Of a DNA stretch of 64,000 bases, positions 3,171 to 61,650 are shown in pieces. The first letter of the stretch is position 1; every line of letters starts with the position of its first letter. The position numbers were made by a program, and so were the translations under genes. The notes below the pieces were generated by a model. The model made no database searches and was not told the origin of the DNA. It was given only the letters and a program-made list of their open reading frames with translations. Source of the stretch: Pelecanus crispus (taxonomy: Eukaryota > Chordata > Aves > Pelecaniformes > Pelecanidae); assembly GCF_030463565.1 (NCBI RefSeq), contig NC_134660.1, positions 1,290,001-1,354,000 on the forward strand. The letters run 5' to 3'.

Positions 3171-3559
3171 GCTCTCCCCAGAGGTGCACTGAGTTGGGGG
3201 GTAACAAAGGGGACGGCTCCTAACCCCACCCCATTAAAATGCCCATGCAGGAGCCCAGGTTCAGCTGTGCTCTTGCTGGGGTGGGGTCAGGTGCTTTTGC
3301 AGCTTGCTGGCTGGAGCTCTGGCTCTCGGGAGCGTGGAGGTGCTCAGCACCCCGGGGAGCCGGGTACCCCGGCTGCCTGCAAGGAGCTAGGCTGAGCTGG
3401 CGGGGGCTGTAAGAGGAGGAGGCATCTGAGTGGAGCCCAGCCGTTCCTCCTACCTTTTTTGGGGTGTCCCCGCCCTCCCTGTTTCCTTCGTTCCTGCCCC
3501 TGAGGGACAGGAGCAGTAGTAGCAGGTTTGACTCTTGTGGAAAGGAGGTGGCAGGTATC
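3170..3559 (+). promoter_or_regulatory. Probable SKAP1 promoter and 5' UTR
   Basis: This GC-richer, C/T-rich stretch immediately precedes the first coding exon and runs into it without a convincing splice acceptor. The AG at 3552-3553 is preceded by purines, not a pyrimidine tract, so the 5' UTR is probably contiguous with the start codon. I see no TATA box at a convincing distance, and the CpG density is lower than in a typical CpG island. The transcription start cannot be placed from sequence alone, and a further untranslated exon upstream is possible. Confidence 0.45.
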
Positions 3560-3593
3560 ATGATCCCAGAGGAGATTCAGAGGCTTCTGGAAG
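3560..3593 (+). CDS. SKAP1: SKAP1 coding exon 1 (start codon, residues 1-11)
   Basis: This is the first coding exon of the T-cell adaptor SKAP1 (SKAP55). It encodes MIPEEIQRLLE and then the first base of codon 12, followed by a donor reading GAAG/gtaacc at 3594. The PEEI-x-x-LLE block is the conserved opening of SKAP proteins. I chose the ATG at 3560 because it sits just before that block and has A at position -3. An in-frame ATG at 3464 would add 32 residues with no resemblance to the family. Human SKAP1 starts a few residues earlier, so the bird N-terminus looks slightly shorter. The phase-1 end joins exactly to the exon at 9716, restoring LLEDAE, which favours SKAP1 over its paralogue SKAP2. 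Confidence 0.88.
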
Positions 3594-6500
3594 GTAACCA
3601 TGAATTCCTCCTTGCTGCTCTTCTGCTTTGTGGGGGAAATCTGCTGTGGTTGCAGAAAAAGAAGCTGAAAAGCTTTTTGTGCCTTGCTGTGCTGAGCCGG
3701 AGAGAGGAGTGGAAGGACTGCGGGAGCTACTTCTTCTCTAAGGCTGATGGTTTCAGGGTCCTCTGGTTACGTACGCCTTCCCTGGCTCTAAACCCAGCGA
3801 GAGCGTAGGGGATGTGGCTGCCTGCCCTGGTGGTTTTGGGGCTGTCCTCATGTTGCTTAGGAGCTGGCAGGTGGGTCCCTGCCTGTGTTAGGGGTGGGGA
3901 AGCTCTGGTGGCCCCAGACTCCGTGTAAGGGGGAGAGAGTGTATGCAAGATTAAGGGCTGTCCTGTGGCATGGCCAAAAGATGTCCCCGCTGGGTGCTTT
4001 TGGTTAAGGTACTGAGTGGCTCCACTGGTGAGCATCGCTAGGGTGAGACAGGGGAGCGGGTACAAAGGGTAAAAGAAGCTTGTGGGCTGCAGTGAGCCCT
4101 CTCAGCAGGCTTTTGTTGTGGCTGCCATAGCGGCATCTCTTGGCTTTAGATGTTGTGCAAGTGTTGTGTGGTGTGCTGGGGATGCAGCGAGCAAGCCCGC
4201 TCGGTGGGGGTGCATCCTCAGGAAAGCTTCAACCCTACTGAAAATGGGGATACAGCTGAGAGCAGTGCTGGCATCAAGCCCCACTTCAGCTGGATAATTT
4301 GAATGTGACCTCCCGAGGTCTCAGCATCTGTATGGATGAGCTGTGCTGAGAGCTGGCAGCGTTTACATCTGTGCATGTAAGATGGCAGGTGGGAGGCTTT
4401 TGAAGCTGTTTTTCCTGGATTTTGTCACAAACTTGAACTGCTACACCTCTACTCGTGGAGGTGGTGGGTCAGCCAAGCAGAAACCATGCTAAACTCTTCT
4501 TTCAAAATATGCTTCACGGACATAGGCAAGTTCTGTATGGACCTTTGCAACCATTGCTGACCCCACGGTGTGACAAGCAAAGGCTTGGTGGGAGAAGTGC
4601 TGTGTAGAGGTGACCATGTTACAACCGCCCCGTAAATAAAAGCTCGGCAGCAGCGTTGCGGGCTGGAGCCACGGTGTTAGCCCATTGCTGAACGCCACGT
4701 GCGTGTGCTACCGACACATCCTGCCATCGCTGCCGCGGGTGGGTGGTGGGGAAGGAGTCGTTAGCATCTTGCTGCTCGCAGCTCGGAGCGGTTGCGTTTG
4801 GGGCTGGCCCCGGCTGCTGCAAGGCTTTGACCTTTTGTTTCCTGTTGTGATGGCTCCTGGCAGCACGGAGCACTCGCCCCTTCCCCTCGGAGATGCGGGA
4901 TAACTTCCAGTCCTGGGATCTGTCTGAGAGAGAGAGTGTGTGCAGCCTCCAAGCCCGTCAAAGCTCTCTTCCAAATGCTTTGTGTCTTCCCCCAGATGTA
5001 GGTGTAAATTTTCTTCTCTGTTTTTTAATCATGGGGGCCTCAGTGAAGTTCACCCTTTCACGTTTTTGATGTGCAGCACTTTATTGTTCAGTGCTGACAC
5101 TTTTGTAAACAACTCATTTCTGCACCTGCCACCTTCCTTTAACTTAGATTATTTTCTTGTTAGCTGACTGTTTTTAATTGAAGGCTTCAGATCTCCTTCT
5201 AAAGCACAGCCTTTGTTTGCTGACAGGTATAGCAGGCTATGAATGGAGATTAATTGCATGTCACATACCTCTGTATCAAACTTGCTGTGTCTTAACAATC
5301 TATACGGTCTTGAGGCCTTCCAGTGGCTTAGGAGGTTTCCAGCTACGCAGGCTGGAAAGGAAGGTGCTTAAGCTATTACAGTGTTTGCAAAATGTGTTAC
5401 CATAGGAATCCTTGGTTTTAAAATAAAAATTACGAATAGAGGAGGAAACATGTACTGATGTACAGGCAATAACATCTGCTTCCTTACATTAAAGTTTGGC
5501 CCATAGTGTGGAGTGTTTATGTGATGCACAAAAGCAGGTAGTCACGGCTTGCTGCTAACAGTTGTGTTCTTATCGTGTAAAACATCTCTGAGGTTGCAGT
5601 GGTTGAAAGCCAAGACAATATGGCTATTCTCTCTGCGCTGCAATCCTGCAATGCATGCGAATGCTTGTTATTTTCTGTTTATGAGTAGATGTGGTTGCAG
5701 CAATTGTATTAAGTTCCACCTTGCAAATAAGCAATCCAAGTTCTCATTAACACTGTTGTCAGTTAATTGCACAGGGCTTCACTTTTGGCTCAGTCAGGTC
5801 CCTTTTAAAACTACTTTTGCTTAAGGGTATTTCATGTTTGTTTAGCACAAATTTCTTCTGAAGGCTGAAACAGTGGTTCTAAAAAATGTGATACATCTCT
5901 GACAAAACCAGGGCTTCTGTTTGTTTGCAGAGGCAAAGACAGTCTGATTATCTTCCCTTTGCCTGCCTTGCTTGATCCTCTTCACTTCCGACGGTAGGGC
6001 TGGAAAGCCATTTTCTCGCTGGAGTTTGGGCAAGAGGAGAGGGGCAGAGCAGGTGCTGTGCTGGGAGGCTGCGACTGCACCTGCACAGCCTAACAAAGCT
6101 GGAGGCTGCTAATTGCAAGGCAAGCAGGCTCAACGCTGTTTTAAAAATAAACAGTAAAATGCTCTGTTTTGTGAGGGCTAATAAGCCACAGTCAGCATTG
6201 ATGTAGCATCATGAGTAGCTCTGGAATTTAAATATCGGGGAATTTGGGGTTGAGACTTGGAAGCTGTTCTCAGTTCCCCTCTTGTCCCCTGCATAGGGGA
6301 CAGTGTCCCATTCAGTCCACGCCAGGAGGACGGATGAAGATTGCTTCAGGTCTCAAGTTTGGTTTTTTTCTGACTCAGCCCCACAAGAGCAGGAAGGCTC
6401 CTCTGAAAAATGTGGTTTCACAATTAAACCATCCTTTCTTGAGCTTGCAGAAAAGTCAAGAAACACTGTGTGTGATAGTTCAGTTTTTATTTTGACAAGT

Positions 6501-9500: not shown

Positions 9501-9715
9501 CAACTAGAGAGCAGCTCTGTAATTGCATGCAATATTTAGATCCTCTTCTATCCGCAATCAGTTCAATGTCTTAATTCTCCAAATGAAGTCTTCAGACTGA
9601 CTGTTTCTAGATCAGACTGCTTGGTACGGTGCTTCAAGGGCTTCCCAGTGCACAGCCAAGTCTGGGTTTCTTACAAGAACAGGTTGGTTTTAACCTGTAA
9701 TTCTCTCTTTCCCAG
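3594..9715 (+). other. SKAP1 intron 1
   Basis: This intron of 6122 bases lies between the donor at 3594 (gtaacc) and the acceptor at 9715 (ttctctctttcccag). I find no further exon, RNA gene or confident mobile element inside. The content is unique sequence with a short A run near 6826-6837. The small open frames, including those on the minus strand at 8611-9060 and 9042-9344, have no recognisable domain and are taken as chance frames. Confidence 0.8.
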
Positions 9716-9821
9716 ATGCTGAAAGTTATCTGGCGGATGGACTGCAGAATGAAAACTTGAGTGCTAAAGCAAGGGAGCAGAGGGATGCAATTCTCTTTGG
9801 CTTCCAACAAGTCAAAACCAG
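9716..9821 (+). CDS. SKAP1: SKAP1 coding exon 2 (residues 12-47)
   Basis: This 106-nt internal exon is bounded by a strong pyrimidine-rich acceptor (ctctttcccag) and a donor CAG/gtttgt, which is usable but weaker than consensus. It completes codon 12 (D), runs through 34 full codons and ends with two bases of codon 47 (R). The product contains [26 protein letters not shown] and GFQQVKT, matching the N-terminal homodimerisation segment of SKAP1. This helical region lies ahead of the PH domain. The intact frame and conserved charged/hydrophobic pattern argue for a functional gene. SKAP2 has a diverged version of the same segment, and the LEDAE and GFQQ spellings fit SKAP1 better. Confidence 0.94.
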
Positions 9822-12800
9822 GTTTGTTATCTGCATTGCTTTCTAATGAAAGTGCTTCAGAACAGCGTCACGCCATGGGGTACCACACGCTGAATTCAAC
9901 GAGCTGGACCATGCTTTGAAAGTTAATGGACATTCAGGGCGTGGCATAATGTGAGGGTGCACTGCACACTTGTCTGTACACTCTCCTGTTTAATCAGTTA
10001 TGTGGTTGTCTGCAGGGTTGTCATTATTTTCGTTTGGAATTTGTTTTGCATTTCAAAGTAAAAAAAAAATCATGCCTTGGGCTGTGTCTGTACAGCGCTT
10101 TGCATATGGGTTACTTGATGCTGTCCTGTTCTTCCTTCTCCCTTGTGCTGGAGAGTATTTTATGGAAAAAAAAAATCCATCACTTGATACTTAGGCTTGT
10201 GGGTAAATCAATACAGTGAGCAAAGATTTGTGCTGCTGGCTTGCTGCTGAAAGTACCTATTTCACAAGTGGCTCCTGAACTCAAATATGTATTGCCTGGA
10301 CTTTGATACAGCAAAAAGGAATGAAGAGGACTTCTTGAATTCAAACTCAGGTCTGATCTGGGTTCCAAAAATCTCGTGTCCTCAGGACTGTTCATGTCCT
10401 GTGTGAGAACACGAGCTGCATCATTTGGAGTGAAGCAAACAAAGGTTGTTCTGTTGTGCTAGGGGAAAATCAAGAAACATAAACAGAAAACAGGTTGCTG
10501 GAGGCTTAAATAAAACTTTCAGCCTCAGCTGCATTATATTTTTGGCTAGAAATGTGATCCAGAGCTTGCTGTTAATGCTCTAGTTATAAGATATGAGTTG
10601 TGTCACTTGAAGTTAAGACCTGACAATAAAACTCAGGGTGGCTGACTGATCTAAGCATCCAGTTTAAATAAAACTGCTGTCGAGTCCCTGAGAAGCGGAG
10701 AATTTTATCCTTCGGAAGGGCACAGCCAGACTCTATTCCCTGCAGTCCCACTGAAGAACTTTGCAAGATGCCCTGCTGTATCTTAATCGATCTTTCCTGC
10801 TGGCTAATTAAGCATCAGTTTTACTCAGCAACACGGGACTGTGTAATTATCAGCCTGGGTTGCCCTGAATAATTGAAACAAGCTGAACGCAGAAGATGGA
10901 AGCCTTTGGAAAACGGGGCCGTAGCATATCTAACGGAGGAACAATGTGTGTGTGTAGCAGTGTCCTGTACTATTGCAGAAGAAAGGGCTTGATTGCATGT
11001 TTATAACAGATTGGTGTGGTTTCTCTGAAAAATACCCACTCATTGGCAGGTACTGCTCTTGGATGGAAAGAGTTAAGTAAGCAGAATTCTGAACCTGAAG
11101 TTTGGGTCAAGCTTTTTGTCCTGAGAGCATGCAACTTTAAAAGTGCCAACTGTTTATCTTCATATAATGCAACTCTAGGTCTGTTTTTAATGAATTAAAA
11201 CCAAATAGCGTGGAACTTGATAAACGTGTGAGGCACCTGGCAAAAATACTGGGTTGTTCTTGCTTCCCAAAGCAGGCGGTCTGTCTTTGTGTGCTGTTAG
11301 ATTTGTGAACAGTGCTTGAGCAGCGGGGAAAGGTGCTGCTATGGCCATCATCCCGTGGACCTCTGGCTTCCCAGCAGTTGTGTGTGGCTTTGGGGACTTG
11401 CTCGAGAACGAGTAGCCTTGGGGCAAACACCGATGCCGTAACACAGAACTCAACCTTGACTCTTAGCTCTTTCTCAGCCTAAGAATACAATTTGGGATAA
11501 AGCTTTTGGAACAAAGTCATCTTAAAAAAGCAGATTTGGTGAAGCGGCCTTTGCATGAGGAGGAGAGGCAATATGCAAATTCCTTCTGGATGGTTGGGTT
11601 CAGATGTGGGCCTCAGTCCTGTTGCTTACTGAAATAAATTGCAGGTACTTCTGGAGGGGAAAGTGAGACCCTTGAGCAAAGACTACAGGGCACCGCTGAT
11701 TTCCTACTTGTGTTTTATTGCTCGGTGGCATTTGGAAAGGGTGAAAAGAACAGAGTATACAGATGTCCTTGCTCTGACCCGAGCCATTAGTGCAATGATT
11801 TGTGGTGGGAGATTACTGTAACGATGACTGTATCTTTTTATTTGAAAGGATCTAAGCAGGTCTTGCTCTTGGGGATGAGGCGCGGGTTTGTCTCTTTGGG
11901 GAGCTTCCTGTGGCTTTTGCGGCGGGTGTTCAGGAAATCTTCAGCCGTCGTCTTCAGGAAGCGCCTGCCTCCCCCGAGCAGCCCCGCTCTCCGCATTTCA
12001 CCTCTGCAGGGCGAAACACAACACGGCGTGTAGGGTTTCATTATTTGGGTTCATAATGGACATAAGTAAACTGCTCAACTACTGGGGAGAGACACATGCG
12101 TCTCTGAAAGGGAAGAGCTTCATCTAGTATGATTATCCTGAGCCAGTCTCAATAACTGTTCCTGTAACTTGGCCGTCAGGTCTTTATATCGCTGCTCTCC
12201 CCATGGCCTCGTAACGTTCCCCCACCAGGAGGTTTGCTGATGACTGTAATGTGAACAAGTGGTTGGGCTTTACGTCTCCATGTGCTACCTGTGAGGATAT
12301 ATTGTTCCCGTCTCGCCGCAAGAAGTGCGGTAGGTAGGGAGTGGATTGTGTTTGCAGGTTATAATTTTTTCCAAGGCAGTCTGGGGTATTTTTGCTCGAG
12401 GAGCTGTGTCGGAGGCGTTGCAGGCAGTGGCTGTGGGGAGGCTGTCACCATAGGGCTGAGTTATGAGTCCCTGTACCGTTTTACTTTCAGAATTCATTTG
12501 GTTATTTAGAGTGCACTGTTGTGTTGAAACACTTCTCTCTTCTTTCTCTCTTTTTTTTTTTTTCCCCCCTCCCTACTAACTCAGATCCTATTCCACTTTC
12601 ACATATATGTAAATCCTGTCCTGGCAATTTTTTTCCTAATCATCTCTTTGGCTTTGTTGATAATATCTTTTTGTAATTGCTTTCTGTGATTGCTTTGCAT
12701 GGCATCCAGGCAAACAAGCCACAGAACACAACTGGAGGCTTGGTCCCCAGGAATTACCTGTGCGAGGGATGAGGATCTCGCAGCACAGTAGCACATACAG

Positions 12801-34158: not shown

Positions 34159-34275
34159 GAGAGGATCAGCGCGATGCTGGCTTTGGACAGGACAGTTCTG
34201 ATGAAAATCAGAGCTGGAGTTTGGCTCCTTCCATGATATCTGATGCTTCACTTCCCTCAGACTTCCAGGATGATG
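34159..34275 (+). CDS. SKAP1: SKAP1 coding exon 4 (residues 56-95)
   Basis: This 117-nt exon has an acceptor ctctcctctttctag and a strong donor ATG/gtaagt. It completes codon 56 (G), adds 38 codons and ends with the first base of codon 95. The product includes FGQDSSDEN and LPSDFQDD, matching the acidic, serine-rich segment between the dimerisation region and the PH domain of SKAP1. GQDSSD is a good discriminator from SKAP2. Compared with the human protein as I recall it, there are about five extra residues (within EDQRDAGF) at the exon start. An alternative acceptor a few bases downstream would break the frame. The next exon, carrying the run-in to the PH domain, is not in the window. Confidence 0.93.
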
Positions 34276-37200
34276 GTAAGTCTCTGATGCTTTTTGAAGC
34301 TGTTGAGTGAAGAAGATGGAAAGGTAAGTGGAATCTAGTATGACTTCCTTGTTGTCATTCATCTATCTCATAACATTGAAGGTATTTTGGTTTGGGGTTT
34401 TTTTTTGTGGTTTTTTTGTTGTTGTTTGTTAACTGGTACCTGTTTTATCAATGACCATAAAATGTTACGGCGATCCTGAATTAGTATTGCTAAGTTAAAT
34501 GTATTTCTTGATTATCTTGGTGCAAACTGGAGTTGGTTGTTCTATTTTGGAATGACAGCAGTGCTGGAAAAGAGCAGAATTTGACCTGGTGGCTAGCATT
34601 TCCCACAGTTAACGTGACTTTTGGGTGTGTTTCTTCTTGGGTGCTCAGCCTCACAGTTTAAAGGGTCTGTGTCTTCTCAAATCTTGTCTTCCTTGGCCCT
34701 TTGAAAATTAGGCCTCTTTAAAGTGCTTTGCTTTGGAGAGCCTTTTGTGGGACCTTCTAGTGCTTGGGAATTTGGGGCTCCTTTCTGCGAGCGTACAAGG
34801 GCTCCCAGCCGAGCGGTGGGTGGGAGCTGGCATCCGAGGCTGAGGGCGCTTTCCAAAGCATTGAATGCCAGACGGGGGTTTTCTGGGCAAAGAGTTGCTG
34901 CAATGCTCACGTCCGCTTGTGAGCAGCGGTTTAGGAGTGATGGATTTGAGACATGCTATTGAAATTGAAGCCTGCAGAGCTGAGACTGTTCTGATCTTCT
35001 CAGGGGCTATCTTTGGGCCCTAGTGAAGGCTTGACTGCTTTGGTCTCAGATTCTCAGTCTCCCACTTTCCACAGATCTTGTTTCCTCCTCCTCTTTCACT
35101 TCCCTTGCACTTTTCCCCCATGCTTTTTACCCCCACCACCTCCCTGCCTTGTCCTTACTCTTTCATTTTCTCTGCTTCGGACGCTCCTCTTCCCCACCTC
35201 TCTCCGCTCAATGCACTCTTTCATGTCTACTCCCACTCTTGTTAGGAATCAGTAGTCATCAGTCAAGAATACAAAGAAATGAGGATTTATTTGGGACGAG
35301 GCCATAAGAGCTGATGGGCACCAAAGTTAGCTCCTTTGCACAGTGCAAAACGCTAGGCATATCTGCGTTTTGATTTATACCACAAAATAAATGTCTTCAT
35401 TTAGACTGATTAGAGACAAGGTTGGTCTGATAGTTAGCTAGTAATTGCAGCAAGAAAAGAGGTGTGGAGTTTGGGGCTGGTTGTTTTAAATAATCTGTGT
35501 GCTCAGATATGATGCACTTATGTAGAGTGCGGATGGAGGACGTGTGACAGGGATAATGGATGTTGGCCTAAATGGGACATGAAAGGGTGCTGAAGACCTC
35601 AAACTTGGCCTCGTCAGGCGAGCAATGTCTCTATGAAGTCTAGGGTTTCTCCTGGCATGTTTATTAAGCTTGTCTAAAGAGGTATTTGCTTTGCTAACTT
35701 TGAGTGGTGGTTTTTGGCAGCTCTAAGGGGCAGAGTTTGACATTACACTTGCAAGGTATGCAAACACTTGGCACCACTGGAAGTTTTCACACACAGATGA
35801 AATGCCAGGCTCGATGGAAGGATGCCCAAATGGGTGAATGGCGAGGAGATTGATAACACAGAAAAATTGCATACTACAAAAAGGAGGGGAAAAAGCTGGC
35901 ATCAGGAGCAGTTACATTGAAATGAGGTGTTAGTTCTTGGAAACTGGTAAGAGTGCTGAATAACAGCAAATCATGGGCTGGACTTTGTGTGTGTTCGTTC
36001 TGGATGAAAGTTGAGCAATTCTGGCTGATTGGATGCAGGCTGTTGGTAGTCTGAAACAGTAATATTAAAGGGGAAAAAGGCTGAACACAGGATTTTGGAA
36101 CCTTTTCTTTGCCCTGCCATGGTTCCACAAACCATGCCTACAGGGCATCATCAGAATGAATTTTTCTAGGTGGCTGCCAGTGGGATGGATATGGGTCAGG
36201 GTTGTGATTTCCTCTGGGTTTTTGAATTTGTGATGACTTGCTATCAGATTTTTTTGCTTAGTTGGGGGATTTGGGGGTTGGCTTGCTTGTTTTCTTTGCT
36301 TACTTTTTTCACTATAGAAGGTGAAGGCACAATGATTTTTTTTTTTTAAATGAATACGATGTCAGTCACCTGAGAGTTTAAATAGTTACTTCAGAGAAGT
36401 AAGTTAAGCTAAAGGGTGTGTCAAACAGTTCTGGTTTCTGAATTTGAACATCCTTGTGGGAAAAGTAGAAAGTTTTATTGCATGAACTGATTTTCATCAT
36501 GATCGAAGTTTGTCTTGGCTTCTCCGAGTGTGCGAACCTTCACTTTTACCGTGCCCCTTTTTGCTTCCGCACTCTCTTCTCCGGTTAGCCGGCGAGGTCC
36601 CTGGAGCAGGCGCCCTGCTCCCGTGTGCTAGTACGGAGCCTGCGCCACGATGGAGCCTCGGGGTGCTGCTGTCGTACCCGTAAGTGACCGAGGGCTGCTC
36701 CTTTTGGGCAGCGCAGGTGCCTGATGCAGGGGGGTAATCCATCTAGCTGTGGCCAGAAGAATGAATTAGCCGGATGTAGGAACATACTTACCATTCCTGT
36801 GGCTTTTTTCCGTCCCTTCTTAGCCCTGTTTTGCAACAGCAAGAGGTTGTGTCCTTAGGTGCAAGCCCACAGCGCTGTTAAAGGCTGCTATCTCCCGCCC
36901 TCCTGAATTTCCCGACTTTATTAATTCAAGGTTTTAACGGAAGCAGGTCTCTGGCTGGGCTGATGCTCGCTTCTGCTCTCCTTGCTATAAAAAATGGGGG
37001 AGTTTGGAGACAAGGGAATGCCACCGCCGTTCATTTTGAACACTCTTTTTCCTTGCGTGCTCTGAACTTCTCGTGGGAATCGGGAAGAACCTTCGAAGTT
37101 GTCTCTGGAGGGAGCAGGAGGGACTGAGCGAGTTGGGGATGACTTTACTCAATGAGGCATGGCCCAGCTCTATAGGATCGTCCCTAATGAGTGATTAAGA

Positions 37201-38693: not shown

Positions 38694-39773
38694 GGTGGGG
38701 GTGCAGTGTGGGGTGCAGGGTGCATTAGGGGGTGCATTGGTGGGTGTTCAGGGGGGTACATTGGGGGGTGCAGGGTGCATGGGGGGGCATGGGAGGCGGG
38801 CTGGTGTGCAGGGTGCATTGGGGGGTGCGGGGGGTGCATTGGGGGTGCAGGTTGGGGTGCAGGGTGCATGAGGGGCGGGCTGGTGTGCAGGGGGGTGCAT
38901 TGGGGGGTGCAGATGGGGGTGCAGGGTGCATTGAGGGGTGCATGAGGGGCGGGCTGGTATGCAGGGTGCATTGGGGGGTGCATGGGGGGCGGGCTGGTGT
39001 ACAGGGTGCGGGGGGGTGCATTGGGGGTGTGGGGGGTGCATTGGGGGTGCAGGTGGTGGTGCAGTGTGCATTGAGGGGTGCATGAGGGGTGGGCTGGTGT
39101 GCAGGTTGCATTGGGGGTGCAGGTTGGGGTGCAGGGTGCATTGAGGGGTGCATGAGGGGCGGGCTGGTTTGGGGGGTGCAGGTTGCATTGGGGGTGCATT
39201 GGGGGTGCAGGGTGCATTGAGGGGTGCATGGGGGGCGGGCTGGTGTGCAGGGTGCATTGGGGGGTGCATTGGGGTGCAGGTTGGGGTGCAGGGTGCATTG
39301 AGGGGTGCATGAGGGGCGGGCTGGTTTGGGGGTGCATTGGGGGTGCAGGGTGCATTGGGGGGTGCATCGGGGGTGCAGGTTGGGGTGCAGGGTGCATTGA
39401 GGGGTGCATGAGGGGCGGGCTGGTTTGGGGGTGCATTGGGGGTGCAGGGTGCATTGGGGGGTGCATTGGGGGTGCAGGTTGGGGTGCAGGGTGCATTGAG
39501 GGGTGCATGAGGGGCGGGCTGGTTTGGGGGTGCAGGTTGGGGGTGCAGGTTGCATTGGGGGTGCATTGGGGGTGCAGGGTGCATTGAGGGGTGCATGAGG
39601 GGCGGGCTGGTTTGGGGGTGCAGGTTGCTTTGGGGGTGCAGGGTGCATTGAGGGGTGCATGGGAGGCGGGCTGGTGTGGGGGTGCATTGGGGGCGGGCTG
39701 GTGTGGGGGGTGCATTGGGGGGTGCATTGGGGGGTGCATTGGGGGGTGCATGGGGGGTGCATGGGGGGGTGCG
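38694..39773 (+). repeat. G-rich minisatellite, 11-bp unit with higher-order repeats
   Basis: About 1.08 kb is built from variants of an 11-bp unit, TTGGGGGTGCA or GGGGTGCATTG. A longer landmark, GAGGGGCGGGCTGGT, recurs at 39154, 39230 (variant), 39311, 39410, 39509 and 39597, giving spacings of 76, 81, 99, 99 and 88 bases. The 99 and 88 values are exact multiples of 11. Near the right end the array becomes pure 12-13-bp GGGGGGTGCATT units. Nearly all C residues sit in the TGCA and GGCGGGCTGG words, so the + strand is strongly G-skewed and has many G4-capable runs. Neither strand has stop codons for long distances, which creates the longest open frames in the window; these are artefacts. Confidence 0.95.
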
Positions 39774-46800: not shown

Positions 46801-49739
46801 TGTGTCTTTAGCCCTCTGCTATGATTAGAAGGAAAGGCCAGTGGTTTCGTTAAGTTTGGGAGGTTTTGTTATCGCAATTCCTGTAAGATTGCATGCAAAT
46901 GGAGATTGGTGGGAAGGAAAGCACAGCCTTAGAAGTATAAAACAATAAATAGGTTCAAGCGTGTACCCCTTCCCATGCTCACACTCCTGTCCTAGCTCTA
47001 GTCTAGGAAGCCCATGGCTACCTGAGTAATCTCTATAGCCATCAAGGAGCAGAACACGACTTTGGCTCCCTCGAGTTGTAATGGCATCTCCCAAGTAGGT
47101 GAGAAATCTTTGCTGCCAACTTTTAGCTATGTTTGTCATCTAGCGGATGTCAGGGTGGTGATGCTGCTCTTAAGATGGGTTTCCAGTTTGCTTTCTGCCA
47201 AGGCTGATTTGAAGCTGGTTTATTTTCATCTGTAGGTGGAAATTCCATGTCTGCTTTGAGTGTCTCCATGGATCTGCTAGCCCTGCTGGACCAGATCCAT
47301 CAGCTTCAGTTATTTTGTTGGGGGAAAAAAACCCGCATCTTATTTTGAATCAAGGAAAAATTCTGTATGCCTCCTCTCCCCCGAGTCTAGCAGAAATCTC
47401 ATTGGGAAAAAAAACCCCAAACATAAGCTTTTCTTTTCAAATGTGATTGGAATAAGTTGATCAGAAATACTTCAATTTTATATTTAAGGTCTTGCAAAGA
47501 CACTCTTAATTTGTTCAAGAAAAAAAGCCCTAACCAACAGAAAAGCAAAGCAAGAAGATTGAAAACCACACAAACTTTTACGATGGAAAACTAACTAGCC
47601 CTACCAAGGGAAAGTAAGGCCAGACAATATCGGTATTTGAATATTCTCTTTTCCTTCTTTTCTTTGATATGCAAACTTGCTGCTGATCAAAGAACTCTGG
47701 GAGGAGGAGGACAATAGTGCGGATCGTGGTGACTTTGGGTTTTGGTTCCTTGGTTTGATCCCATGATGGCTGGGGTAGGCTTGGGGACGGGGACAAGCAC
47801 CGCTTTCCTCCCCTCCCCCTTGGTCTTCCCGTTCAACCCCTGAATTCACGGATCAGCAGGGGAGCTGAGCTGTCTGAGCCAGGGGCACCGGCACAAGCCC
47901 TGAGGTTGCAGAAACTGCCATAAAATGGCTATAGCTCCGCCGTCTACAAAGCCTCCATCCCTCTTGGGTACCCCAGTATGCTAAATCTGTGGGTTCAGGC
48001 TTGGGGCAGGTGGTAGGATTTGCTCCTTTAATCTTCAGTGTCTATTTATTACAGTGGAGCTCCAGGGCATCTGAGCATGGCCTTTCTCGCCAAGAGACCA
48101 TAACAAATGGATGCACTACCTCTTTGACACAGAACCGAGGTTTGCGCACCACCTATCTGCGCGATTCGGTGCTGGCTCTTTCTGTCTCCGCTTCTTCTTT
48201 TGTTGTGGTGCTTATAAAACTAAGGAGCAGGAAGGGATTTGAATGCAAAGAGCAGCTCCGGTTGCCCGTCCACACCTGCCCTCCCCTTTGCTTCCTGGCC
48301 AGTCCTCGGCTAATTTTTCATGGGGGTGATGCTCACCTTTTGGATGAGAAAAAGCTCTGCCCCAGGCCATGGGACCATGACTTAGAGTAACCCTTTTCCC
48401 TTTGTTTACTCTTAGGTATTGAACGCTTTCGCAATTGCTAATTATTTTTCAATTGCCCAAGACAAATGAGAAGGTTAGGGAGGTGCCATTTCTCAGTGAC
48501 CTTGCCTGTCAATTGCTGTGACTCTTTATTAATGTTGGAGCTGGTTTTGTTAGATTTTTCTTGTTGGTTTTAAAGAATAAGAAGGAAATGTCTTGAATTG
48601 CAGAGGTAATTTAAGCCTTTCTCTGTCTCTGAATGCCATCAGAAATCAGAAGGCTAATGACGTTGGTGGGGAGTTCCATCTTCTCATTGCAACTTAATTT
48701 TATTTTTAAGGGAAAAAGCGTCCTCAGAGAAGGTGAGGACCCACAGTAAACTTCAACCTTATACAAGAAGGTGCAACAGCCTTGTCCTAGTCTTTTGGAA
48801 GATGATTTCATTCCTGTTGCAGTGATATTTTGTGGTACTACCCAGCATCAAAGCTGTTTTGCACCAAGTTACAGCTCTGAAGGGTCTGCAGTTTGAACAG
48901 GCTAACAGACAAGGTAAAGGATGACAAGGCGGGTGATGCTAGAGGAGTGTGAAGTGATTTGACTCCAACACACCAGCTGTTAGAGGTAGCATCAGACTAG
49001 GATCAACCCAGCACCCTCCAGCTTCCCATTGTAGTTTGGGAGCGTGAATTAGGGGATGAAAAACCAACAGTGCGATATGCACGCGAGTCCGAGTCCTGGG
49101 TTTGCCACACTGACTCTATTGAAGCTGAAAATATTTAGCTGAAAACGTTGATTCTGGGCAGTTGAATGACCTTGGCTCACAGGCGAGGCGTTTCTCGCTT
49201 GGATTTGGAGGAACGGGGGACTGCAGGGCCATCCAAACCCCAATTCTTTGTGCTTACGTTCTCAGTGTAATCAACTTGCTCTGGAGTTACCGGAAACATT
49301 GGCTTCAATCTCCATGTCGGAATTCCTGTTCCCTGGTAGCATAAAGCTTTTAATCCACATGTGCAAACAGCCCAGGCTTCCCTGGAGGGGGACTGTGATG
49401 TGGGGTGTCACTTTGGGGGGGTCCGAGGCTGCTCCCCGAGCCCATGTGCTCGTCGTGGGTGAAGGGGGCACGCTGTGCGCGCTTCCATGGGAGACGGTTC
49501 TTGGCAGCCTTTTGCTGGAGCTGAATCTCCTGGTTCCCTATTGAATGGGGGAGCTTGAAAAAAAACCTATGCTTTTCAACATGAGATGTATTTTGCAGGC
49601 TGTCTCCAGGCAGCTCGCAACCCAAAGGGCATCACCGAACGCGCCAGCAACAAAATAGCAACTGGGGGGAGGGAATAGGAGGACAGAGGAAGATGGAAAA
49701 CCTCCTATACAATAATTAGAATAAAATTGGGGTATCAAG

Positions 49740-49767
49740 AATACAGGGGTCAGCTTCTGTTCACACC
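49740..49767 (+). promoter_or_regulatory. Composite half-site element, copy A (DR5 spacing)
   Basis: GGGTCA at 49747-49752 and TGTTCA at 49758-49763 lie in direct orientation five bases apart, followed by CACC-AATAT. The upstream position where other copies have AGTTCA reads AATACA, so the DR1 arm is degraded. DR5 spacing of RGKTCA-type half-sites is the classical RAR/RXR arrangement. Binding is inferred, not shown, and the T at the first position of the second half-site is a deviation from consensus. Confidence 0.45.
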
Positions 49768-49910
49768 AATATGGCTTTCACCTTGTAGAGAAAGGCCTGC
49801 ACCAGGTAATTAGGTCAAGTCAATGATTATATATCTTTAAGCGAAGTGGAAGGGACTGTAATTGTGATGAAATTTGTTTGAAGAGGGAAAGCATGGGGAA
49901 TTTTGTTTAA

Positions 49911-49964
49911 AGGTAACGAGTTCAAAGGGTAAATGAAGTTCAAGGTTCAGTTCCTGTTCACTCC
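49911..49964 (+). promoter_or_regulatory. Six-half-site nuclear-receptor array, copy B
   Basis: In 50 bases the same strand carries AGGTAA (49911-49916), AGTTCA (49919-49924), GGGTAA (49927-49932), AGTTCA (49937-49942), GGTTCA (49944-49949) and TGTTCA (49955-49960). Successive gaps are 2, 2, 4, 1 and 5. The last three form the DR1+DR5 composite shared with the other copies. The gaps of 2 resemble DR2 elements used by retinoic acid receptors near HOX genes. An 18-A run starts at 49969, which leaves open a retroposon origin. Confidence 0.5.
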
Positions 49965-49968
49965 TAAC

Positions 49969-49986
49969 AAAAAAAAAAAAAAAAAA
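49969..49986 (+). repeat. Poly-A tract, 18 nt
   Basis: An uninterrupted A run five bases after copy B of the half-site composite. It may be the tail of a lost retroposon or plain simple sequence. I see no clear target-site duplication. Confidence 0.9.
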
Positions 49987-50228
49987 GAGAAAACAACACC
50001 CACACACACCAAGCAGCCAATATTTCTATCAGACGAGTTGCTTTATCTTTTGGGGAAGGGAATGGGATCATATCCCTGTAGGAAAACTGGAATTAAAACA
50101 GTGACAGCTCTTTAATAGGGCTTTCTTTCTTTTGGAGCCAACAGAAGGGTAAACCTTGTGTAATGGGTTTTTTTCCTAGTTGGTTTATTCTTCCCTTCGG
50201 AGCGCGCTGCCACATGCAGCCACCTTGC

Positions 50229-50277
50229 ATGCAAATCGGTGACATCCCGAGAAGGGCCTTGCCTGTGATATGCAAAT
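50229..50277 (+). promoter_or_regulatory. Two perfect octamer (POU) motifs, ATGCAAAT
   Basis: ATGCAAAT occurs at 50229-50236 and again at 50270-50277, 41 bases apart in the same orientation, in unique sequence between copies B and C of the half-site composite. A TGTTCA half-site follows at 50285-50290. POU-domain factors bind this octamer. A third octamer lies at 51975-51982, beside the inverted DR5. Confidence 0.45.
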
Positions 50278-51436
50278 ACCCACTTTGTTCACGGGAACTT
50301 TTCAAGAGAGGGGAAGGCAGCTGGGCCATGAACGGTGCGGAAAACTGCCCATCTTGGGGGCTTTAATAGGATTTCAACTTCTCATAAATGTTTTTGGTGG
50401 AACAAAAATGCGTTCCTATTCACGCTTCTGAAATAGTCTGTTTTTCTCCCAGTAAATATGTGACTTCTGTCGATACTCATAGGTGTTCTGGTTTGGTGGA
50501 GGGCAGGAGTGGACTTCCCTGTAGCCTGGCTGGGAAGTGCCTGGGTGCTCTTGGACCTGGGAGAAAGGGCATAAGAAAAAATAGTCACGGCTGCCCTTGC
50601 AAGGTTGTTTTTAAATTGCACATGTAGGTGTAGAAAGGTGGGCTAATAGTTATGACACAAGTCAGGACCTCTGGCCTCTTCCTCGTAGCATCGTTATGTG
50701 ATCTTGGAAACGGTTTTGGCTGTGGCACCAGGCGTGATCTGCAAACCAGCAGCGCGTCGGTGCTGGGGGGCTGGAGCCCCGTTCCTTGCTCTAGCCGTGC
50801 TGGGCTCTGAACGTGCAGTGCTGGTGTTCGGGCCCAAAGAGTTCGCAGCAGATGCTTGGAGGTGGCGATGAGGAGGATTTGGCTGTGCTCGCTGTCCCCT
50901 TTTCTCTGTGGAAGCAAGGAGGGGTTCGTGGTGGTGGTGATCGTGCTGGTTTTCTTGCACGAGTGTTGAGCCTCGCTGCTTTTTTTCCTAAATGGCTTAA
51001 TTGTGGGACAGGAGGCTCATTCCGAGCACAAAATAATGTCGTTTGACCTCATCTTGAAAGTAAACCGCTGAAGTTTAGTGCTTCCCACACTTGAAGGGGA
51101 GAAGTACCAAAGCAGCTCCCCGGGAAACCTCTAAACTGGATAGAGATGGGGGCAGCCCCCGAAGCGTCTTGCGCGGTCGGCAGAGCTCCCTGTGAACTGG
51201 GGCTGGGATCCTGCTGGCCTTGGCACTCGCGCCAAGCCAGCGCCTGGCTCCGGAGGAGGACGCGGTGGCATGGGTGACGAGGGTCCTGAGCCGTCCCCGC
51301 TCGCTGCGGGCGGCACCGATGGGCTGGTGACTGCAGCGGGGGTTTGGGAGGGGTGGCGGGGGGCACGAGGAAGGTAGCGCCTCACCCCTGCTGAACCCGA
51401 GCTGCAAATATTTCCACCCTGGCAAAATTTAGTAGA

Positions 51437-51462
51437 AGTTCAAGGAACAGCATTGCGCCAAT
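51437..51462 (+). promoter_or_regulatory. Truncated composite half-site element, copy C'
   Basis: AGTTCA (51437-51442), one base, then GGAACA (51444-51449) preserves the DR1 arm. It is followed after 8 bases by CCAATAT, the same word that follows copy A. Relative to copy A it appears to have lost about five bases including the third half-site. It supports the idea that the copies derive from one ancestral sequence longer than the half-sites themselves. Confidence 0.35.
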
Positions 51463-51487
51463 ATTAATGACCTCAAAGGGCATGCAA

Positions 51488-51515
51488 AGTTCAGAGTTCG
51501 CCGTCTGTTTACACC
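51488..51515 (+). promoter_or_regulatory. Composite half-site element, copy C (DR1+DR5)
   Basis: AGTTCA (51488-51493), one base, AGTTCG (51495-51500), five bases, TGTTTA (51506-51511), then CACC as in copy A. The spacing is identical to copies B and D. A near-octamer ATGCAAAG at 51482-51489 overlaps the first half-site. Confidence 0.45.
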
Positions 51516-51765
51516 ACTGATCCTTTTCTCCCTTTTCCTATTGCGCCCGTCCTATCTGCTGTATAAATTTGATGTCACCGGTCGCAGTTAAGATCTGTTT
51601 TGTGACATTTCAATCTGGTTTAGGTTTCTGGGTTGGTTTTTTGTTTTTTTTTTTGTGCTCGGAAAAAATATACAGCGGTTTTGTGCGGATAATAGAGGGT
51701 GAAGGGTGGGAGCGCGAGGGTGTCGGGGTGGAGGGTGTGTGGGGGAGCAGGGTGCTCTCGCGATC

Positions 51766-51791
51766 AGTTCAAGGTTCACTCTTTGTTCGCA
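51766..51791 (+). promoter_or_regulatory. Composite half-site element, copy D (DR1+DR5)
   Basis: AGTTCA (51766-51771), one base, GGTTCA (51773-51778), five bases, TGTTCG (51784-51789). The first two half-sites are identical to copy B over 13 bases, and the gap to the third is the same. It lies 273 bases after copy C. Confidence 0.5.
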
Positions 51792-51974
51792 TGTAATAAA
51801 AAGTCTTCAGTTATCAGGTATTTAAACCCAAATCAGCAGTTCCATATCCGTAACCTGAGCTAAGTGTTCCTCCATCTAATGGCCGTGCGGCTGTCGTTTG
51901 CAGCGAGTTGGGTGACACTCGATTTGTACTCGGTGACGGGAACAGATGGGTCTTCATTGTGAGAGCCCGCCTGT

Positions 51975-52000
51975 ATGCAAATGTGAACGGAGTTTCACCC
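51975..52000 (-). promoter_or_regulatory. Inverted DR5 element with adjoining octamer, copy E
   Basis: On the minus strand GGGTGA (52000-51995), five bases, CGTTCA (51989-51984) forms a DR5. A perfect octamer ATGCAAAT at 51975-51982 on the + strand ends one base before it. The DR1 arm is absent. The pairing of octamer and half-site recurs at 50.27 kb and in weaker form in copy C. Confidence 0.45.
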
Positions 52001-52730
52001 GCGCCCGCGCCTGACCTGACCACGCACAGGCATTTACCCAGCGCGCTCAGCCGGGGGGGCGGCCAAGGGCGATAAAAAATGGCACTCGGATAGTACCAGC
52101 GGCAGGTCAAGTTTACCATCCGTCTTTCAGCGGGACCGAGATGGCAACACAGTTATTTAGTTTCAGTGTTGATGTTGGTTGCAATAAACTCCATCATTTC
52201 ACCTGTTTATGAACCCAACCTCGTACCGGTTTCGCTGCAAAAAAGCAAACTCGCGCGGGCGATCGGCTGCTTGTTTCTGCCGGGATGAGGAAGGGTCCTG
52301 CTCTCTGAAGGGGTTTCTTTCTCTCTTTATTTGATCCCGCGGCCCGCGTTGTTGCATTTTCCTTCCCCCCGCTTTGTATTTTGAGGTTTTGTTTATTTCT
52401 TCGGAAGAAACAGAAACCCGTCTGTGCCGAAATGGGCTTTTTTATTATTTAAAAATTGAGAAAAATGATAATTGATGCCAGAATAAACAAGCAGCATTTT
52501 AGGCGTCGGTTAACAGTTTTGCATGTGCATAGGCGGTATACAATATATAATAAATCTTACCATTTAAATGTGCAACCCTTCATTAGAGTGAAAATATGAA
52601 CAGCTGTAATAGCACATTTACGCTGGCGACAGAGAAAAATCTGGTTACAGTTGTAATTTTTCATGCTGATGAAGAACTGGGAGCAGGTTCGAACACTGAT
52701 TCTGTAACTGGGTGGAATTTTATTCCTCCA

Positions 52731-61636: not shown

Positions 61637-61650
61637 GGTTCAAAAGTTCA
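61637..61650 (+). promoter_or_regulatory. Candidate DR2 retinoid response element
   Basis: GGTTCA (61637-61642), two bases AA, then AGTTCA (61645-61650). These are the same half-site spellings used in the well-known HOXA1 3' RARE, but with DR2 instead of DR5 spacing. A single 14-bp match is expected to arise by chance at a modest rate, so this is a candidate only. Confidence 0.4.

Follow-up and report, generated by a model that had tools for sequence, protein, structure and literature searches.

A compact cluster of predicted nuclear-receptor sites in a SKAP1 intron of Pelecanus crispus, a probable counterpart of a retinoic acid-responsive enhancer of other vertebrates

The 64,000-nucleotide stretch of Pelecanus crispus DNA analysed here (the window) contains, in an intron of SKAP1, a compact homotypic cluster of receptor half-sites. 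This block is probably the avian counterpart of the RAR-bound, retinoic acid (RA)-responsive enhancer of skap1 intron 4 in zebrafish and mouse. The block is most economically read as an RA-responsive enhancer cluster at the published position; it is new in its detail, while the kind of enhancer and its position are already known. RAR binding and enhancer activity for the SKAP1 intron come from the literature on other vertebrates; the orthology we infer.

In both zebrafish and mouse, RAR ChIP was reported to mark four strong sites within skap1 intron 4; the second of these is kept as far as human and is DR5-like in inverse orientation (PMC8608873). In stable zebrafish lines carrying this second site in an 812-bp skap1 fragment, RA was found to raise expression and BMS493 to silence it; the transgene was active in gut and neural tube, most strongly in the posterior hindbrain, and skap1 itself was up 12.5-fold with RA (PMC8608873). 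A DR1/DR2 (TR4) motif was the second motif of the RAR peaks (PMC8608873). In a meta-analysis of RA effects covering four species, SKAP1 takes the top place of the table (PMC7923837). In human ovarian cancer cells, HOXB7 and HOXB8 were reported to fall, and SKAP1 and other HOXB genes to drop moderately, when a different enhancer in a SKAP1 intron was deleted (PMC8017555). RAR favours DR5 and COUP-TF/EAR favour DR1 (PMC10345098), and near Meis1 and Rarb, RA-regulated regions that combine DR5 with DR1 have been described (PMC7259794). The first-pass annotation of this DNA had proposed a retinoid-responsive enhancer near HOXB; by position, this proposal is well supported by the published zebrafish enhancer and mouse RAR sites (PMC8608873).

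Gene context and receptor half-sites

Exons were placed by tblastn with human SKAP1 as the query. Coding exons were found on the + strand at 9715-9825, at 34182-34277 (residues 63-94 of the query) and from 132174 onwards; on its 5' side, the intron with the block is bounded by the second of these. A further match, at 3548-3607 with E 5.3, can at best be called compatible with SKAP1 exon 1, and no exon for residues 95-119 was found by tblastn. The block thus lies about 15.5 kb past this bordering exon, in the intron that follows residue 94. The distance to the HOXB1 homeodomain (window coordinate -51689, + strand), beyond which lie three further HOX homeodomains, also on the + strand, is about 101 kb. 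These exons and homeodomains, all on the + strand, confirm the placement in SKAP1 and in the HOXB neighbourhood. The intron is probably SKAP1 intron 4, as first annotated; this number presumes a counterpart of the small human exon 3, for which no match was located here. The same intron contains a GC-rich tandem array at 38699-39770, with GGGTGCATTG-type units and many overlapping periods.

Half-sites were scored throughout, in bits, with a hand-made matrix of half-site preferences, and the search sequence was the window plus 100 kb of the same genome on either side (264 kb). Outside the block, a strong DR2 was observed at 61637 (+) of the same intron (GGTTCA aa AGTTCA, 17.3), and the best DR5 of the 264 kb lies between SKAP1 exons at window coordinate 103957 of C18 (AGTTCA tcccg GGGTCA, 18.4).

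The composite AGTTCA-N-GGTTCA-N5-TGTTCA comprises 18 specified bases, not 19. Four matches with at most three mismatches (49740, 49937, 51488 and 51766) were found in the window, all on the + strand; 100 shuffles averaged 0.05 and never exceeded 2. Copy A (49740-49763, +; AATACA g GGGTCA gcttc TGTTCA, 3 mismatches) has no good DR1. Its DR5, GGGTCA-N5-TGTTCA at 49747-49763, scores 15.6, a value reached by four DR5s of the 264 kb including itself, so that the earlier description of a copy with the DR5 arm alone intact holds. Copy B with its 5' extension (49919-49960, +) reads AGTTCA a AGGGTA aatga AGTTCA a GGTTCA gttcc TGTTCA, and includes an upstream AGTTCA at 49919 that had been overlooked. 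Its core at 49937-49960 is a perfect DR1+DR5 with 0 mismatches, and its DR5 at 49944 scores 14.5 (9 as good in 264 kb). Copy C (51470-51511, +) reads ACCTCA a AGGGCA tgcaa AGTTCA g AGTTCG ccgtc TGTTTA; in the composite register, from 51488 (AGTTCA g AGTTCG ccgtc TGTTTA), it shows three mismatches, with a middling DR1 (12.0) and a decayed 3' DR5 arm (3.6; 817 DR5s as good in 264 kb). On its 5' side, a previously unlisted DR5 (AGGGCA tgcaa AGTTCA, 51477-51493) scores 14.8 (7 as good in 264 kb). Copy D (51766-51789, +; AGTTCA a GGTTCA ctctt TGTTCG) departs from the composite at one position, in TGTTCG, and its DR5 arm is weak (8.9; 91 DR5s as good in 264 kb).

Copies B and C fill the same five half-site slots with spacings 1,5,1,5. 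The outer slots at 49926 of copy B (AGGGTA, 0.5) and 51470 of copy C (-0.1) are weak, and the last two slots of copy C are decayed (3.2 and 0.4). The DR5 arm is decayed in two of the four copies. Copies B, C and D had been described as sharing one spacing; their positions bear this out, but not intact half-sites, as only B is perfect. The recurrence of the composite is therefore real, and less regular than first described. The sequence definition of a DR5 RARE (two direct RGKTCA, spacing 5) applies to the predicted sites at 49747, 49944 and 51477 (14.4-15.6), with one-position departures from RGKTCA in TGTTCA of copies A and B and AGGGCA of copy C. The third half-site starts with T, off this consensus, in all four copies. 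The credible predicted sites, all within 2 kb, are these three DR5s and the DR1s at 49937 and 51766.

Other elements of the first description fared less well. The "truncated copy" at 51437-51460 (+) has a single good half-site, AGTTCA, and its DR5 score of -1.1 is at background level (4297 as good in 264 kb); it is possibly mere flank of copy C and no element. The inverted DR5 at 51984-52000 (GGGTGA aactc CGTTCA) is likewise at background level (8.7; 104 as good in 264 kb). A DR5-like site in inverse orientation was found at 52199-52215 (-; GGTTCA taaac AGGTGA, 12.8-12.9 bits, a level reached by 22 DR5s of the 264 kb), and is no more than a candidate for the DR5-like site reported as conserved from fish to human (PMC8608873). 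CACC does follow the third half-site in both copies A and C. The word CCAATAT, given as common to copy A and the truncated copy, is present at 49766 and 51458, but also at 50017, and its six occurrences in the window are at the shuffle level (6.6 expected), so that it is weak evidence. Three of these six fall in a 1.7-kb part of the block, all on the + strand.

The block could instead consist mainly of DR1-type elements for NR2F, HNF4 or TR4, for example in gut, the DR5 spacing being incidental, although we consider this unlikely. The DR1s of copies B and D have the best scores (17.3 each), two of the three DR1s of at least 14 bits in the 264 kb lie in the block, and the DR5 of copy D is weak. 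On the other side stand copy A, with its good DR5 and no good DR1, and copy C, in which a DR5 of 14.8 compares with a DR1 of 12.0, as well as the RAR ChIP sites in the intron of fish and mouse and the RA response in fish (PMC8608873).

Origin, clustering and copy number

Copies B and C were found to align without gaps over 51 bp (49914-49964 and 51465-51515, both +) at 66.7% identity; for copies B and D, the alignment spans 37 bp with 75.7% identity. The flanks of copies A-D were compared in 12 tests of 24 bp, with uncorrected p values against random pairs of the window. The upstream flank of B and C (15/24 identities, p 2.5e-4) is the sole flank that stands after correction over the 12 tests. 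The downstream flanks of A and C (12/24, p 0.01) and of B and D (11/24, p 0.027, partly A-rich) are nominal and are lost on correction, and the remaining nine comparisons were unremarkable. Local alignments of segments of 261-381 bp exceeded all 200 shuffles for A-C (39, shuffle maximum 36), B-C (42, maximum 32) and B-D (38, maximum 33), whereas for A-D and for four comparisons with 51980-52300, from 20 to 145 of the 200 shuffles were as good; A-B and C-D were left out, since their segments overlap. When the core and 24 bp upstream were removed, B-C upstream alone was nominal (p 0.03) and the A-C similarity disappeared (p 0.64); no downstream pair fell below p 0.12. A larger duplication was considered and rejected.

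These alignments suggest that one duplication, that of copies B and C, is likely, and that copies A and D have little in common beyond the receptor core. The proposed local duplication of one element finds support in B and C alone, from their 51-bp similarity and upstream flank. Copies B and C would have arisen by duplication of an element of about 51 bp or more, and copies A and D may be more decayed copies of this element or may have converged on its core.

The same alignments could be read as an ancient local duplication whose B/C-like copies are now functionless, the half-sites being relics. Such an account would fit the B-C and B-D identities, the partial decay of copies C and D and the recurrence of CCAATAT. 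It is nevertheless improbable: the similarity of A and D is mostly confined to the receptor core, and only one of the 12 flank tests survives correction, a pattern with which selection on half-sites fits better than neutral decay. Furthermore, the position coincides with that of a known enhancer.

The six best triples of half-sites with spacings 1,5 in the 264 kb comprise five at copies A-D, with B represented twice, and a sixth near HOXB1. Their scores are 23.2 for B, 18.1 for B one unit upstream (49919), 17.7 for D, 15.4 for the site at -46517, 14.8 for C one unit upstream (51470) and 14.5 for A; copy C in its own register is outside the best eight. At 14.5 bits, spacing (1,5) gives five triples within 2.3 kb, the largest cluster among 169 spacing pairs, although overlapping triples are counted apart, so that the five come from four places. 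For the other pairs, the largest cluster per 2.3 kb is four for (11,4), two for 11 pairs, and one or none for 156 pairs; the largest cluster in 100 dinucleotide shuffles is two. The significance of the cluster is overstated to some extent by these overlapping triples and by the choice of the 2.3-kb interval after the sites had been seen. By number, (1,5) is not exceptional: its six triples at 14.5 bits in the 264 kb equal those of (11,4), and its three at 17 bits are matched by two others of 81 spacings, so that the case rests on clustering. Individual sites are also concentrated in the 2.35 kb of the block, which contains three of the 14 DR5s and two of the six DR1s of at least 13.5 bits in the 264 kb. 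Half-sites of at least 7.5 bits number nine on the + strand of the block (1.8 expected) and five on the - strand (2.0 expected). The clustering of sites exceeds chance.

Across 1.31 Gb of the genome, the exact composite occurs once, as copy B. With at most one mismatch, seven matches were found, compared with about two expected from uniform bases, and with at most two mismatches 98, compared with 86 for a reversed control pattern; the composite outside the block is therefore background. Copies B and D are both among the seven, lie 1829 bp apart, and form the sole pair closer than 66 kb among the 98, where 0.013 such close pairs are expected by a calculation whose chance figures took 19 specified bases in place of 18. 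It is thus very improbable that the block is a chance cluster in an intron, selected after the fact. A 64-kb window does hold many motifs to notice, and the genome counts are near chance, but the proximity of B and D is unique among the matches, and neither the 100 shuffles nor the 168 other spacings reproduce the cluster.

The genome scan with the spaced pattern, which the first-pass annotation had called for, bears equally on the concern that the block might be part of a dispersed family. In a similarity search that scores best candidates only and skips very common words, the stretch 49700-52300 was found to match itself alone, in two pieces (E <=0.001, 1.31 Gb). A profile (R1) built from copies A-D, which these four match by construction, yielded no fifth copy in the 264 kb. 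The block is single-copy. That the composite belongs to a dispersed repeat or a transposable element, as recurrence inside one locus might suggest, is scarcely credible and was rejected in view of this self-match among the candidates scored, the control-level count and the lack of any further profile match in the 264 kb and in 80 kb around a SKAP2-like locus. An RNA or tRNA-derived element was also rejected, with 0 matches in an Rfam gathering scan of the window and 0 genes by ARAGORN.

Comparison with known retinoid enhancers

The block resembles the enhancer of PMC8608873 in its location in SKAP1, probably in the same intron, 3' of HOXB, and in its DR5-like motifs; the published intron has several RAR sites (PMC8608873), and the bird intron several predicted DR5s. 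The conserved published site is inverse-oriented, whereas bird copies A-D all point with the gene. No mention of a repeated DR1+DR5 composite was found in text of PMC8608873, figures apart. The zebrafish primers of that enhancer (PMC8608873) have no match with fewer than six mismatches in the bird sequence. Searches of the open-licence literature, taken as text without figures, turned up no paper describing a DR1+DR5 array for SKAP1.

The fourth-best 1,5 triple of the 264 kb, GGGCCC a GGTTCA cacaa AGTTCA (C18, -46517 to -46494 in window coordinates), is found some 5 kb from the HOXB1 homeodomain, on its 3' side, and is presumably the HOXB1 3' DR5 RARE. Like the bird block, this element has its DR5 on the same strand; unlike the block, it is a single site and no array.

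The mouse Skap2/Hoxa1 e-site, a long-range RA-responsive Hox enhancer that overlaps the Skap2 start site (PMC6649716), is similar in being an RA-responsive Hox enhancer at a paralogous neighbour gene, and is stated to have three Rara peaks in data that its authors do not show (PMC6649716). A second SKAP-like locus of the bird, on C2, was taken as SKAP2 from its second-best set of matches (residues 16-51, 101-122 with a weak E of 0.11, and 120-147). Its 80 kb, of which 5,634 bases are N, is without such an array: no match to the A-D profile and no DR1 of at least 13.5 bits was found there, and one DR5 reaches that score. At offset 60618 of this locus (reverse complement), a 1,5 triple was observed (TTGTCA g AGCTCA aatcg GGGTCA, 17.2), with the next coding match some 18 kb further on; this triple may be chance or at best a lead.

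Proposed action of the block

As an RA-responsive enhancer, the block would bind RAR/RXR at the DR5s 49747, 49944 and 51477; the bound receptors would retain co-repressor as long as ligand is absent and would switch to activation once retinoic acid is present. At the DR1s that overlap copies B and D (49937 and 51766), RXR, NR2F, TR4 or HNF4-type dimers would be admitted. We infer competition between these DR1 receptors and RAR/RXR at B and D because the half-sites are shared; one occupant would exclude the other, and the output of the enhancer would be set by which receptors the cell has. The enhancer may act on SKAP1 itself as well as on the upstream HOXB genes. A further, rather doubtful proposal is that the duplicated five-slot element (1,5,1,5) acts as a graded switch between RAR/RXR at DR5 and NR2F/TR4/RXR at DR1, perhaps specific to birds or reptiles. 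In the open-licence texts searched, no description of such a DR1/DR5 competition grammar for HOXB regulation was found.

Overall, the block offers the probable base-level anatomy, in a bird, of a retinoid enhancer that has been documented by ChIP peaks, a single alignment and a single transgene (PMC8608873). This anatomy predicts which of the half-sites do the work. If the sharing of half-sites between DR1 and DR5 is true, competing receptors would read one DNA element, and would thereby determine HOXB expression over a distance of about 100 kb.
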